From an uncultured Acidobacteriota bacterium (GTDB lineage Bacteria > Acidobacteriota > Thermoanaerobaculia > UBA5066): 52,367 nucleotides of DNA. Location: contig CAIMWE010000032.1 of assembly GCA_903845115.1 (NCBI GenBank), positions 1-52,367 on the forward strand, in the 5' to 3' direction. Position numbers and translations under genes: made by a program. Positions 45,498-52,367 of this stretch are shown here, piece after piece; within the stretch, counting starts at the first letter, position 1; each line of letters opens with the position of its first letter. The notes beneath the pieces were generated by a model. That model was given only the letters and a program-made list of their open reading frames with translations. It had not been told where the DNA came from and made no database searches.

Positions 45498-45501
<4 letters not shown>
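44299..45501 (-). CDS. folC: Folylpolyglutamate synthase / dihydrofolate synthase
   Basis: A 400-residue Mur-ligase-fold enzyme joining glutamate to dihydropteroate or folates with ATP. The P-loop LIAGTNGKGSTAAFASAIL (46-53 core), YTSPHLVRVTERVRV, VEVGIGGRLDATNVL and GSDHLEVLG are diagnostic, and LLLDGAHNPDGARSLA marks the C-terminal domain. GTG 45501 overlaps the accD stop (GTGA), and accD-folC is a common bacterial pairing. Length is slightly short but all core motifs are present. Confidence 0.93.
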
Positions 45502-46340
<839 letters not shown>

Positions 46341-46355
46341 GCGGAACTGGGGAGT

Positions 46356-47153
46356 CTATCCCGGCCCGTCCCCCGCGAGGGAGACGAGCGGCCTGCCCGA
46401 CGGGCCGGTCGAGACGACCGCCGGAACGCCGAAGAGCTGCGTGAGGACCTTCGCCGTGAGGGTCTCCCGGACCGGGCCGTCCTCGACGACGTGCCCCTCG
46501 CGAAGGAGGACGACGCGATCGGCCGCGGCCGCGGCGACGTCCATCTCGTGCGTCGAGAAGACCACGAGCCCGCCCGAGGCCGCCTTCCTCCGGAGGATGC
46601 GGACGACGAGGAAGCGGTGCCTCGGGTCGAGGTTCGCCGCCGGCTCGTCCAGGAGGAGGATGTCGGTCTCTCCCGCGAGGACGCGCGACAGGAAGACGCG
46701 CTGCCGCTCCCCTCCGCTCATCTCCCGGACGTCCCGGTCAGCGAAGGCGGCGGTGCCGGTCTCCTCGAGGGCGCGCCGGGCCGCAGCGTGGTCCTCGGCC
46801 CGGGGAGCCCCGAGGAGGCCGAGATAGGCGGTCCGGCCGAGGAGGACCATCTCGAGGGCGCTCGCCGGGAAGAGGGGTTCGAACGACTGGGGCAGGTACC
46901 CGATCCTCCGCGCGGCGTCTCGCCTGGTCAGGTCGCTCGCCGGGCGGCCGTCGAGCGTCAGCGTTCCCGACGTCGGGGGGAGGAGCCCCGCGAGGAGCTT
47001 CAGCAGGGTGGACTTCCCCGATCCGTTCTCCCCGAGCAGCGCCACGACCTCGCCCGTTCCGAGATCGAGGTCGACGCCGGAGAGGGCCTCCCGGCGCCCG
47101 TACGAGGCCGAGACGTCCCGGAGGAGGAAGCGGTTCGTGCCGGCGGCGGCCAC
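46356..47153 (-). CDS. ABC transporter ATP-binding protein (BtuD/FecE-like)
   Basis: A 265-residue ABC ATPase with Walker A GENGSGKST (41-49), the Q-loop YLPQSF, the signature MSGGERQRV, Walker B ILLLDEPAANLDP and a switch histidine in VVFSTHEMD. It belongs to the vitamin B12/iron-siderophore importer group by sequence style and by its partners, the FecCD-type permease and the binding protein directly upstream. GTG 47153 follows the permease stop by 2 bases. It powers inner-membrane uptake; the substrate is unknown. Confidence 0.9.
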   Translation of the reverse strand: MAAAGTNRFLLRDVSASYGRREALSGVDLDLGTGEVVALLGENGSGKSTLLKLLAGLLPPTSGTLTLDGRPASDLTRRDAARRIGYLPQSFEPLFPASALEMVLLGRTAYLGLLGAPRAEDHAAARRALEETGTAAFADRDVREMSGGERQRVFLSRVLAGETDILLLDEPAANLDPRHRFLVVRILRRKAASGGLVVFSTHEMDVAAAAADRVVLLREGHVVEDGPVRETLTAKVLTQLFGVPAVVSTGPSGRPLVSLAGDGPG

Positions 47154-47155
47154 GG

Positions 47156-48163
47156 TCAGTTTCTCTGCCTCAGAAGGACCAGGAACGCCGGGGCCCCGAG
47201 GAGGGCCGTGACCGCACCGACGGCGACTTCGGTCGGGGAAAAGACCGTCCGCGCCGCCACGTCCGAGGCCGCCAGGAGGACGGCGCCCGTCAGGAACGAC
47301 AGGAACAGGACCCGGACGTGCCCCCGCGCCACGAGCCGGACGGCGTTCGGGACGAGAAGCCCGACGAACCCGATGATGCCGGCGTGCGCCACCGCGGCCG
47401 CGGCCAGGAGGGAAGCGGCCACGTAGGCGATCCGCTTCGTCCGCTCGACGCTGATCCCGAGAGTGAAAGCGGTCTCTTCGCCCAGGGTGAGGGCGTCGAG
47501 CGACCGGGAGAGGCCGAGGAGAACGAGCCCGGCTCCCGTCGCGTAGATCGCCATCGACACGACGCTCTCGCGCGTCGCGCCGGCCAGGGACCCGAGCATC
47601 CAGAAGACGAAGCCCCTGGTCTGGTCGGCGTTCCCGAAGGAGAGGAGGAAGAGGAGGATCGCGGAAGCGAGCGCGTTGACGACGACGCCGGAGAGGAGGA
47701 GCCGGTTCCGGTCCAGCCGGCCGCGCACCGAGGCGCCGACGCCCACGAGGGCGATCGCGGCCAGGGCACCGAGAAAGGCCGCTACCGGCCCCATGAGCAC
47801 GGAGGGGCCGGCCGGCGAGGAGACGGCGAGGAGCGATCCCACGAGGGCGCCGCACGCCGCGCCGCCGGAGACGCCGAGGAGGAACGGGTCGGCGAGCGGG
47901 TTCTGGAGGAGGGCCTGGAGCGACGCTCCCGACATGGCGAGGGCCCCGCCCACCAGGAGCCCCAGCAGGGTCCTCGGCAGGCGGATCTCGCGGACGATGG
48001 CGAGCGTCGGGGCGTCTCCCGAGCCGAGGAGGGCGGCGACCACCTTTCCCGGAGGGATCCGGATGCTCCCGACCAGGAGGGAGGCCGAAGCTACTGCCGC
48101 GGCGGCGAGCGCCGCCAGCGCGAACGGGAGACCCCGCCTCCAGCCCCCGGCGGCAGGGCTCAT
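47156..48163 (-). CDS. FecCD-family ABC transporter permease (BtuC-like)
   Basis: A 335-residue permease with about ten membrane helices. IRLPRTLLGLLVGGALAMSG and QALLQNPLADPFLLGVSGGA are hallmark FecCD segments, with HAGIIGFVGLLVPNAVRL as the ATPase-contacting loop. It imports B12, haem or ferric siderophore with its partner ATPase. ATG 48163 overlaps the binding-protein stop (ATGA). The segment before this ATG is arginine-rich and not family-like. Confidence 0.92.
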   Translation of the reverse strand: MSPAAGGWRRGLPFALAALAAAAVASASLLVGSIRIPPGKVVAALLGSGDAPTLAIVREIRLPRTLLGLLVGGALAMSGASLQALLQNPLADPFLLGVSGGAACGALVGSLLAVSSPAGPSVLMGPVAAFLGALAAIALVGVGASVRGRLDRNRLLLSGVVVNALASAILLFLLSFGNADQTRGFVFWMLGSLAGATRESVVSMAIYATGAGLVLLGLSRSLDALTLGEETAFTLGISVERTKRIAYVAASLLAAAAVAHAGIIGFVGLLVPNAVRLVARGHVRVLFLSFLTGAVLLAASDVAARTVFSPTEVAVGAVTALLGAPAFLVLLRQRN

Positions 48164-49038
48164 GGGAGGGAAGTCCCGATCCGGTCCGCCAGCGCTTCGA
48201 GCGCGTCGATCAGGCGCGGTCCCGGACGCTCGAGCCAGTTCCCCGGAATCGAGACGACCCGCCCCTCCCTCGCGGCAGGGACGAGCTTCCACAGGGGATT
48301 CGCTCCGAAGGCCTGGCGAAAGGCCTCGGCGTTCTCCCGCGTCTCGGGGCGCACGATCAGCCCCGGATCCCATCGGGCGAGCGTCTCGAACGAGACCCGG
48401 GGCCACTCCCCCGCCTCGCCTGCCGCGTTCGGGATCCCGGCCTGGCGGAGGAGATCGCCCAGGAAGCTCGCCGGGCCCGCCACGACCGGTGGATCGGGCC
48501 AGATGAGGATCAGGACGGACGGCAGCGCTCGCCGCCGGGAAGAGTGCGCGATCCTCTCCCGCGCCCGCCCGAGCCGCCCGCGCAGGGACGCCACCAGCTC
48601 TTTCGCGCTCCCCTCCGCTCCGAGGGCTCCCCCGACCGCGGTGATGTCGCCGAAGATCCCCTCGAGGGTGGTCCCGCCGGTGACGACGACGGGGAACCCG
48701 AGGGCGCGAACCCGTTCGAAAGCGGCCCGGTCCGTCCCGTCCCGGGAAGCGACGACCAGGTCGGGGGCGAGCGACACGATCCGCTCCAGATCGGGCGAAA
48801 AGCCTCCGATCCGCTCTTTTCCGGCCGCTCCCGGAAGGTCCACCGCCAGGTCCGGCACCGCGATGACACGGTCACCCGCCCCGAGGGCGAAGAGAATCTC
48901 CGCCGCCGAGGGGGCGAGCGCGATGATCTTCCGGGGAGGGCTGCCCCGGCCCGGTCCGGCTGCCGGGGCAGTCCCCAGGAGAGGCGACGCGAGAGCGAGC
49001 GCTCCTCCCGCCGAGAGGAGGAGCTGCCAGAAGATCAG
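48160..49038 (-). CDS. Periplasmic substrate-binding protein (BtuF/FepB-like), probable CTG start
   Basis: A 292-residue protein if translation begins at CTG 49038, which overlaps the stop of the preceding gene as CTGA. From there it has a hydrophobic signal peptide (IFWQLLLSAGGALALASPLL) and then the core RKIIALAPSAAEILFALGAGD of BtuF/HmuT-type binding proteins, IGGFSPDLERIVSLAPDLVVAS, and a second lobe ending in GNWLERPGPRLIDALEALA. No ATG, GTG or TTG occurs in frame between the upstream stop near 49273 and GTG 48858. That GTG lies inside the first lobe and would delete the signal peptide and the core. It captures the substrate for the adjacent permease and ATPase. Confidence 0.75.
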   Translation of the reverse strand: MIFWQLLLSAGGALALASPLLGTAPAAGPGRGSPPRKIIALAPSAAEILFALGAGDRVIAVPDLAVDLPGAAGKERIGGFSPDLERIVSLAPDLVVASRDGTDRAAFERVRALGFPVVVTGGTTLEGIFGDITAVGGALGAEGSAKELVASLRGRLGRARERIAHSSRRRALPSVLILIWPDPPVVAGPASFLGDLLRQAGIPNAAGEAGEWPRVSFETLARWDPGLIVRPETRENAEAFRQAFGANPLWKLVPAAREGRVVSIPGNWLERPGPRLIDALEALADRIGTSLP

Positions 49039-49310: not shown

Positions 49311-52214
49311 TCACGGCCTGACGCCAATCGTGAAGGCTTTCCACATTTTCACGCGGACTCCGTCCTTCGTGGCCGGCTCGATCCTGGCGGCCTTGAGGGC
49401 GGCCACGGCCGCCTCGTCTACGAACTTGTACTGCGACGGGCGCACCACCCGTGTCTCCAAAACCGTCCCCTTCTCCGTGACGAGGGCGTGGACCGTCGGG
49501 TTTCCGAGCGTCCCATCCGGCCCCCGCCGAGCCATCTGGCGCGCCTGCGGCGGCATCGGCGGGAAAGGCCCGAGCTGGACGAGGCGAGGCTCGACGACCC
49601 CCTCGCCCGGACCGACGAGGTCTCCCTCCCGAACGGGTGCGCTGGAGGGAGCCGGAATGACCGGAGGCTGGGCGGGCGCGGCCGGGGCGACGTCCACGGC
49701 CGCCGGCGGGGCGGCTTCCACGACCTTGGGTGGTTCGGAGGTCGGCCGTGCCGGCGGCTCGGTCGGCCGCTGCGGAGGAGCCGTGGGCTGGGCCTGGGGC
49801 AGGTCCTCGGGACGGACCGGCGTCGCTGCCGCCCCTCCCTTCACGGGGGTCGGCACCACGGCCGTCCCCTTCGGGGCGCCGCCCTTCCGGAGCTCCTCCG
49901 CCTGGATCGCGGCAAGCCGTTTCGCTTCCTCGGCAACCGCCTTGGGGTCCACGATCCTCTCCACGGTCCGGGGAGCGGTCTCGACCGGGTCCCCGGCGGT
50001 CCCGGGAGCGGAGGCGGTGACCGGAGCGGCCGGCGACACCTCGGCCGCCGGTTTGTTCCCGGCACCCCGGGTGAAGTAGATCCCTCCGGCGACGGCCGCG
50101 ACGGCCGCGAGCCCAAGACCGGCGAAAAGGCCGGCCCTGCTCTTCGGCGGTTCGGCGACCGGGACGGCGGGTTCCAGAGCGGGAGCCTCGACCTCGGGAA
50201 GCGGCACCGGAGCCGGTTCGGCCGGCGCCTTCTTCGAGATGACGAGCCCCTTGCCCTTCTTCGCTTTCGTGTCGGTGCCCGGCCCCGGCCCGGCCGCCGA
50301 CATGGCGAAGGCCGCGTCGATCTGCTCGTCGGTCGGGACGGGCGTCGTCTCCGACAGGCGGTGCATGTAGATCGCGAGATCGGCGGGACCCGGCGTCGGG
50401 TGGGTGGAATAGAGGACCGCGTTGATCTCTTTCTCGAGCTCCGACGCGTTCTGGTACCGGGCGGCCGGGTCCTTCGAGAGGGCTCGGAGGACGATCTGGT
50501 CGACCTTCTCCGGGACCTCCGGGTTCTTCGAGGAGGGCGGCGCGACCGCCGCGCCGCGGACCTGCTCGAGGATCGCGAGGTCGGTGTCGCCCTTGAAGAA
50601 GCGCTCCCCCGTGAGCATCTCGTGCAGGACCAGGCCGAGGGAGTAGATGTCGCTCCGGCGGTCGACCTTCCGGCCCCACGCCTGCTCCGGCGACATGTAC
50701 TGCAGCTTGCCCTTCAGGGCCCCCGTCTGCGTCTGCGACATCTTGGTCGCCGCCTTGGCAATCCCGAAATCGCAGAGCTTGATGTCCCCCTCGAAGCTGA
50801 TCAGGATGTTCTGGGGCGAGACGTCCCGGTGAACGAGGTCCAGCTCGCGGCCGTCCGGACCGAGCCGGCGATGGGCGTAGTCGAGGGCGTTGGCCACCTT
50901 GGACGCCACGAAGAGCGCGAGCTCGAGAGGGAGCGGCCATCCCCGTTCCGGCCCCATCTTGAGGATGGACCGGAGGTCCCGGCCTTCCACGTACTCCATG
51001 GCGATGTAGTGGTAGGCGTCGACCTTCCCGAGGTCGTAGATGTGGATGATGTTGCTGTGGGTCAGCTGAGCCGCCAGCTTGGCCTCGTCGATGAACATCG
51101 TGATGAAGTCGACGCTGTCGGCCATGTGCGGGAGGATCCGCTTGATCGCGACGATCTTCTCGAACCCCTCCTCGCCGCTCATCCTGGCCTTGAAGACCTC
51201 TGCCATCCCTCCGGCGGCGATCTTCTCCAGGAGCTGGTAGCGGCCGAAGGTCCCGGTCAGACCGCTTCCCGTCCCCCGCGCGCCAGGAGAAATGGGGGAC
51301 GCGGACGGAACGGGCGCCGCCGCCTGCGAGATCGGGACCGACGGCCTGGCCGCCGGCGCGGGCGGGACGACGACCCCCGGGGAGCTCTCCGGTCTGGGAG
51401 ACGGATTCGCCGCCGCGAAGCGGCCGCCTCTCTCCAGGAGACCGCGCTCCAGATCGGCGATCTGACTCGCCGCCCGCCGGGGAGCGGGCGGCTTCTCGGC
51501 CTTGTCGGGCGCCTTGGCGCCCATCAGGCCGGAGAGGGTCTGGGTCAGCAACCGGTCGACGTCCGTGTCGCGGCGGACGGGCTTCTCGGGGCGCGCTGCC
51601 GAGGCCGCGGCCGGGAGGGAGGTCTCGAGCCGGATCGTCCGCTCGTCCACCGCCGGCGGACCCTCCTTCCTGGGGCCCGGCATGAGGCCCGACAGGGTGT
51701 CGTGGAGCTTCTTGTCGATGTCCGGCGTGGGACGGACCCGCGGGGCGGTCGCCGGCTTCACCCACTCGCCCATCCCGGAGAGGACGTCCGAGAAGATGTC
51801 GTCGGACGAGAGGAGCGGCGGCACCGACTCGGCACCGGGCCCGGGAGCCCCCCCCCGGGAGAAGGCTTCCAGCTCGGCCAGGAAGACCTCCTCCGTGAAA
51901 GGCTTCTCCAGGATGCTCGTCGCGCCGACGCGGCGGGCGTCCGCCACGCGGTTCTTCCCCCTGTATCCCGCCATCATCAGGAGAATGGGAGGCGGGGTTC
52001 CCAGGTCGAGGATCCCCTTGATGACGTCCGGGGTGCGGAGCTTGGGGAGAACGGAGGAGACCAGGACGAGGTCCGGCTTCGAGCGGCGGAAGGCGTCCAG
52101 ACCCTCCTCTCCGTCCCGGGCGATCACGAGCTCGTAGTCCTTCCCTTCGAGGAAGCCCCGTATCCGGTCGAGGTACCTCGGCTCATACTCGATCAGGAGG
52201 ATTCTCTTCGACAT
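49311..52214 (-). CDS. Receiver-like/Ser-Thr kinase/TonB fusion protein
   Basis: A 967-residue protein with four parts. (1) A receiver-like domain (3-120) lacking the phospho-acceptor: Ser53 replaces Asp, and the acidic pair is altered (LLIEYEP). (2) A linker with three LSG(L/M) motifs (145-149, 174-178, 227-231). (3) A Hanks-type kinase (324-600) with loop KIAAGGMAEVF, K358, HRDVSPQN (D464), DFG at 482-484 and MSPE. (4) One membrane helix (694-714), a Pro/Ala-rich stretch (717-880) and a C-terminal TonB domain (881-967, GNPTVHALVTEKGTVLETRV and so on). The kinase faces the cytoplasm and the TonB part the periplasm. ATG 52214 was chosen by GGGGAATT and the domain edge. It lies upstream of a BtuFCD-like importer. 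Confidence 0.9.
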   Translation of the reverse strand: MSKRILLIEYEPRYLDRIRGFLEGKDYELVIARDGEEGLDAFRRSKPDLVLVSSVLPKLRTPDVIKGILDLGTPPPILLMMAGYRGKNRVADARRVGATSILEKPFTEEVFLAELEAFSRGGAPGPGAESVPPLLSSDDIFSDVLSGMGEWVKPATAPRVRPTPDIDKKLHDTLSGLMPGPRKEGPPAVDERTIRLETSLPAAASAARPEKPVRRDTDVDRLLTQTLSGLMGAKAPDKAEKPPAPRRAASQIADLERGLLERGGRFAAANPSPRPESSPGVVVPPAPAARPSVPISQAAAPVPSASPISPGARGTGSGLTGTFGRYQLLEKIAAGGMAEVFKARMSGEEGFEKIVAIKRILPHMADSVDFITMFIDEAKLAAQLTHSNIIHIYDLGKVDAYHYIAMEYVEGRDLRSILKMGPERGWPLPLELALFVASKVANALDYAHRRLGPDGRELDLVHRDVSPQNILISFEGDIKLCDFGIAKAATKMSQTQTGALKGKLQYMSPEQAWGRKVDRRSDIYSLGLVLHEMLTGERFFKGDTDLAILEQVRGAAVAPPSSKNPEVPEKVDQIVLRALSKDPAARYQNASELEKEINAVLYSTHPTPGPADLAIYMHRLSETTPVPTDEQIDAAFAMSAAGPGPGTDTKAKKGKGLVISKKAPAEPAPVPLPEVEAPALEPAVPVAEPPKSRAGLFAGLGLAAVAAVAGGIYFTRGAGNKPAAEVSPAAPVTASAPGTAGDPVETAPRTVERIVDPKAVAEEAKRLAAIQAEELRKGGAPKGTAVVPTPVKGGAAATPVRPEDLPQAQPTAPPQRPTEPPARPTSEPPKVVEAAPPAAVDVAPAAPAQPPVIPAPSSAPVREGDLVGPGEGVVEPRLVQLGPFPPMPPQARQMARRGPDGTLGNPTVHALVTEKGTVLETRVVRPSQYKFVDEAAVAALKAARIEPATKDGVRVKMWKAFTIGVRP

Positions 52215-52299: not shown

Positions 52300-52367
52300 C
52301 GCAACGACCAGTGCCGCGCCGCTATCTGGTGGTTCCCTTCGGCTGCAAGGTGAGCCGCGTCGAGGCC
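52293..52367 (+). CDS. MiaB/MtaB-like radical-SAM methylthiotransferase, start only
   Basis: Only the first 25 codons are inside the window. RYLVVPFGCKVSRVEA resembles the N-terminal UPF0004 domain of tRNA methylthiotransferases, in which FGCKVN-x-x-E carries the first iron-sulfur cysteine; here Ser replaces the usual Asn. GTG 52293 is preferred because GAGGAG lies just upstream, but a second in-frame GTG at 52311 is possible. Identification rests on a short stretch. Confidence 0.5.
   Translation, partial: MSTQRPVPRRYLVVPFGCKVSRVEA

Follow-up and report, generated by a model that had tools for sequence, protein, structure and literature searches.

Signalling from the outer membrane to the cytoplasm of Gram-negative bacteria is partly known, the classic case being sigma/anti-sigma relays such as FecR. 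TonB C-terminal domains (CTDs) are best known for binding the TonB boxes of outer-membrane receptors. TonB and TolA are built from a transmembrane (TM) helix, a Pro-rich spacer and a CTD of the TonB fold. These proteins touch ExbB/TolQ via the Ser and His of an SHLS motif located in the TM helix; the His is reported to be indispensable to Ton and Tol activity (PMC12215075). In Myxococcus xanthus GltG (PglI), an FHA domain is combined with PF03544 (PMC3169522 Table 1). GltG and GltJ (AgmX) are modular, TolA/TonB-like proteins whose TonB_C domain is believed to extend to partners in the outer membrane (PMC5349195). Both consist of a cytoplasmic signalling domain, one TM helix, a spacer and a periplasmic TonB_C domain. 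Another family of single-span proteins is the PASTA-type receptor kinases (PknB/Stk1), in which a PknB-like kinase is joined by a single TM helix to an extracytoplasmic domain.

A protein that shares elements with each of these systems is encoded by an uncultured Acidobacteriota bacterium (class Thermoanaerobaculia, UBA5066; assembly GCA_903845115.1, contig CAIMWE010000032.1). The window, i.e. the whole stretch of DNA analysed, comprises 52,367 nucleotides. GltG is the nearest architectural relative, carrying the phospho-Thr reader FHA where the Acidobacteriota protein has a kinase; the latter combines an apparently active kinase with a putative pseudo-receiver, and Pfam detects no FHA domain in it. 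Relative to PASTA kinases, the protein has a TonB CTD in place of the PASTA repeats, none of which Pfam finds in its 967 residues, belongs to a Gram-negative envelope and carries the pseudo-receiver as an extra. Relative to TonB and TolA, it has a cytoplasmic part of 600+ residues. The parts are known, and databases would name a Pkinase and a TonB family protein; the new thing is their combination, and no description of kinase-TonB_C fusions was found in the openly licensed literature. The gene comprises the following features:

49311..52214, minus strand: whole gene, putative pseudo-receiver / Hanks Ser-Thr kinase / TM / Pro-Ala-rich spacer / TonB CTD, 967 aa (ORF, Pfam, ortholog alignment, AlphaFold).
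51858..52214, minus strand: N-terminal receiver-fold (REC) domain, aa 1-119, phosphoacceptor position S53 (Pfam PF00072 3.8e-10, alignment, AF2 pLDDT about 90 or more).
51690..51725, minus strand: linker amphipathic helix 1, aa 164-175, DIDKKLHDTLSGL (AlphaFold, alignment).
51531..51566, minus strand: linker amphipathic helix 2, aa 217-228, DVDRLLTQTLSGL (AlphaFold, alignment).
50451..51239, minus strand: Hanks Ser/Thr kinase domain, aa 326-588, catalytic motifs complete, PknB the closest solved folds (Pfam, alignment, fold comparison).
50067..50135, minus strand: single membrane helix, aa 694-716, LFAGLGLAAVAAVAGGIYF, with no His and no SxxxH (hydrophobicity, AlphaFold, motif check).
49620..50066, minus strand: disordered Pro/Ala-rich spacer, predicted to be periplasmic and to contain one helix at aa 757-777 (sequence, AlphaFold).
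49314..49619, minus strand: TonB C-terminal domain, aa 866-967 (Pfam PF03544, TIGR01352, AF2, Foldseek).

The open frame runs on the minus strand from an ATG at 52214 to a stop at 49311, and its start lines up with the ortholog starts in the alignment. The preliminary description had placed a kinase, one membrane helix, a Pro-rich stretch and a C-terminal TonB domain in a single frame at these coordinates; the coordinates are correct, and Pfam and AlphaFold bear out the arrangement. Pfam assigns Response_reg to residues 5-114 (3.8e-10), Pkinase to 326-588 (3.7e-41) and TonB_C to 903-958 (4.5e-8), all above the curated cut-offs. From a 25-sequence alignment of the whole protein, AlphaFold models the receiver (1-119) and the TonB domain confidently, predicts helices at 694-716 and 757-777, and is mostly confident in the kinase domain, with a weaker N-lobe and activation segment; the rest is disordered. 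An assembly or frameshift artefact is ruled out, as dozens of independent genomes show equal architecture.

The TonB_C match (E 4.5e-8) reaches 33.9 bits, where the cut-off is 24.6. Modelled alone, the C-terminal 108 residues reach an AlphaFold pLDDT of 94.5. When this model is compared with the PDB by Foldseek, each of the 14 top-ranking matches is the C-terminal domain of TonB, HasB or FusB. The structure prediction that had been proposed as a check on this region thus returns a TonB-like fold, and chance similarity to TonB is ruled out by the fold together with conservation in 25/25 orthologs. The CTD of the source protein has FPPMPP and lacks the usual YP motif, for which reason its partner may have shifted.

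The kinase domain has all the hallmarks of the Hanks type (kinase fold, VAIK Lys, C-helix Glu, HRD, DFG). G335, K358, E377, H462-R463-D464, N469, D482-F483-G484 and P509-E510 are invariant in 25/25 orthologs, in agreement with the earlier statement that every key residue is present, and judged by these residues the domain is apparently active. It is nearest to the PASTA-kinase PknB, both by fold and by a partial match to NCBIfam NF033483 that is confined to the kinase part (307 bits against a cut-off of 450).

Two features of the cytoplasmic half had been overlooked. The first is the receiver domain at the N terminus, which bears the family signature LIEYEPRY. None of the aligned Thermoanaerobaculia orthologs has Asp at the phosphoacceptor position (the end of beta-3, four residues ahead of a conserved Pro), where S, T, G or C is found instead; the Asp is kept in just a few relatives from other classes, e.g. 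L181 and L182. Having lost this residue, the domain is best read from its sequence as a pseudo-receiver and not as an ordinary phosphorelay input. The second is a pair of short amphipathic 'TLSGL' helices in the linker of ~200 residues.

Full-length orthologs with kinase and TonB_C were obtained from the same family, order and class, and both domains are present in 25/25 aligned Thermoanaerobaculia orthologs (best TonB_C E 4.7e-21). A C-terminal query finds relatives in 37/41 genomes. Distribution is patchy, with the kinase-TonB_C family absent from one family of the same class (f9). The survey outside Acidobacteriota consisted of a search of 84,980 species with the receiver motif; the 43 loci it returned were all titled Acidobacteriota or its classes except one 'bacterium' record. 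Scores inside the phylum fall into two clearly separated groups, 148-184 bits for the class family and at most 93 bits for other receivers. Many of the lower-scoring matches (L151, L152, L155 and most of L171-L187) nevertheless have the receiver-kinase-TM-TonB_C layout and span about 950-1170 aa; the layout was assigned by Pfam for L152 and by motifs for the remaining ones. The search for kinase plus TonB_C architectures that had been suggested therefore finds them in the orthologs and in other Acidobacteriota classes, and the layout looks conserved across much of the phylum. Some other classes have kinase-less versions in which TM-TonB_C follows the receiver directly (L153, L185, L189, L190).

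The gene lies among the following neighbours:

52311..52367, plus strand: beginning of a divergent MtaB-type radical-SAM gene that the contig end truncates (its peptide VPFGCKVSR agrees with the MtaB starts of relatives).
48160..48858, minus strand: BtuF-like periplasmic binding protein (Peripla_BP_2), downstream, true start probably further upstream (Pfam, NCBIfam).
47156..48406, minus strand: FecCD/BtuC-type permease ORF, domain aa 105-413 (Pfam, NCBIfam).
46638..47084, minus strand: ABC ATPase domain (BtuD-like) inside ORF 46356-47855 (Pfam).
45498..46340, minus strand: accD, conserved syntenic housekeeping neighbour (conserved cluster AccD; named from sequence).

Neighbour counts were taken over 47 distinct loci, 41 with enough downstream sequence, 39 with enough upstream sequence and 34 with both flanks. 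The BtuFCD-like importer reported just downstream is indeed there, and BtuF or BtuC follows in 24/41 orthologous loci and accD/folC in 29/41. Upstream, an ExbB-ExbD-ExbD-TonB set with its separate TonB is divergent in 12/39 loci, yebC/ruvC occurs in 28/39, rho in 10/39, and a CarboxypepD_reg/OMP-barrel gene resembling TonB-dependent receptors in 8/39. A transport-related neighbour is found in 30/34 loci with both flanks, so a conserved neighbourhood devoid of transport genes, named at the outset as evidence against the proposal, is not what these genomes show. A divergent yebC-ruvC-exbB-exbD-exbD-tonB-DUF4388 cluster adjoins the kinase at L080, L081, L088, L097 and L128-L138. The L081 lineage has ExbBD-TonB on one flank and BtuCD-accD-folC-dgt on the other, an arrangement that may be near the ancestral order. 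The expected linkage to BtuFCD does recur, but it is confounded by lasting synteny with accD-folC-dgt, yebC-ruvC and others; because the housekeeping neighbours are equally stable, gene linkage is weak evidence for kinase-TonB_C function. A B12-specific role was rejected: Rfam gives no match, and thus no cobalamin riboswitch, in the window or in four relatives, and the models matched by the BtuF-like protein and the permease include B12, siderophore, heme and F420 ones, none of the transporter-specific models exceeding its cut-off.

These linkages bear on whether the protein is a genuine variant of TonB that draws its energy from ExbB/ExbD and whose same-chain kinase senses or gates energy transfer to receptors such as BtuB. 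Its TonB-like layout speaks for this, as do the adjoining BtuFCD genes, the divergent ExbB-ExbD-ExbD-TonB sets and the doubly flanked L081 lineage. The membrane helix speaks against it. Residues 694-716 are the only strong hydrophobic segment of the protein, and neither a His anywhere in the TM helix nor the Ser-x3-His motif occurs in any of 34 distinct kinase proteins (0/34). The TM His is present in 14/14 genuine TonB/TolA-type proteins checked, comprising 11 genuine TonB encoded beside orthologs and three of the source genome. The ExbBD operons near orthologs encode their own dedicated His-bearing TonB, and the two MotA_ExbB (ExbB/TolQ) genes of the source genome lie on other contigs (C169 and C198), each adjoining its own His-bearing TonB/TolA-type protein. 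An energised TonB is for these reasons quite improbable and was dropped as the leading reading. The preliminary description saw a copy of the TonB layout in the part that follows the kinase. This does not hold for the membrane helix, and control of TonB energy coupling by the kinase is unlikely as stated, since the ExbB-contacting motif is missing.

A different coupling would be a structural linker of the GltG kind, in which the CTD ties an inner-membrane complex mechanically to the outer membrane, as in a gliding or envelope motor, with the kinase as an accessory regulator. The ExbB-ExbD-ExbD set at lineage-ii loci resembles the make-up of AglRQS, which we take to be one TolQ-type and two ExbD-type proteins, the latter presumably AglQ and AglS. 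M. xanthus GltG is itself an FHA-TM-TonB_C protein that binds the TolQ homolog AglR (PMC3169522). As GltG, a TonB_C protein, works with a TolQ-type motor, loss of the TM His need not by itself preclude contact with ExbB-like proteins. However, no Agl/Glt gene set lies in the flanks of any locus examined, most loci are without nearby motor genes, and pseudokinase and kinase-less versions exist, with FHA in none. A linker of this kind is unlikely.

The protein is probably a PknB-like receptor Ser/Thr kinase with a periplasmic TonB CTD for docking or sensing, and not an ExbBD-powered transducer. It would act in the manner of PASTA kinases or GltG without being a member of either group. The cytoplasmic half is predicted to comprise the pseudo-receiver, the flexible linker and the active kinase, with one membrane helix and a flexible spacer of ~150 residues tethering the kinase to the CTD, for which we infer a periplasmic location. 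There, the CTD would dock on a periplasmic or outer-membrane partner, which could be the cell wall or a receptor's TonB box. Engagement of the partner would probably alter kinase clustering or spacing and, with it, autophosphorylation, and the kinase would then signal the state of the envelope or of outer-membrane transport to its substrates in the cytoplasm. The source genome has 18 FHA matches, and these proteins could read the kinase output.

Another TonB_C protein of the source genome is L168 (G000 contig C123:249-2075, minus strand, 609 aa), composed of a kinase-like domain, TM, spacer and TonB_C. In 14 aligned members of this type Arg mostly replaces the catalytic Lys, HGx stands in place of HRD and DFG is degraded, so that these paralogs are classed from their residues as predicted pseudokinases. 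They likewise lack the TM His. MltG (YceG) is a glycan-strand terminase, and the pseudokinase-TM-TonB_C gene lies directly downstream of mltG/yceG in 14/14 loci (L156-L168 and L170), the source genome among them; mltG was identified by PF02618 (E 3.3e-77) for one representative and by clustering and reading for the others. At L166:1430-5501, two pseudokinase-TonB_C genes stand in tandem behind mltG. By eye, two further TonB_C proteins of the genome differ in their other parts: in L002 (G000 contig C101:3-1730) TonB_C ends a long protein with a SHOCT-like stretch and a TPM-like domain, and L003 (G000 contig C304:6339) has an SH3-like region, with an FHA match just downstream (C304:6025).

The position of the pseudokinase paralog beside mltG points to envelope biology. 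Together with the proximity of the kinase to PknB, it raises a narrower form of the receptor-kinase explanation, namely a peptidoglycan sensor whose TonB CTD binds the cell wall as a functional counterpart of PASTA kinases. This is somewhat doubtful, since the active kinase has no mltG link and is surrounded by transporter and housekeeping genes, and TonB-box binding is the best-known role of such CTDs. It is also conceivable, if only tentatively, that phospho-signalling across the envelope is phylum-wide: TonB-type CTDs touching outer-membrane receptors or the cell wall would feed two kinases, the active one and a catalytically dead partner encoded next to mltG, and contact with the outer membrane would in this way be coupled directly to Ser/Thr phosphorylation in the cytoplasm.

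As the SHLS His is absent, it seems that a TonB CTD can be put to new use independently of the motor. The active kinase and the pseudokinase would form a concrete, testable pair. If the favoured explanation is true, a receptor kinase sensing through a TonB CTD would constitute a second, phosphorylation-based route from the outer membrane to the cytoplasm, conserved over much of Acidobacteriota.
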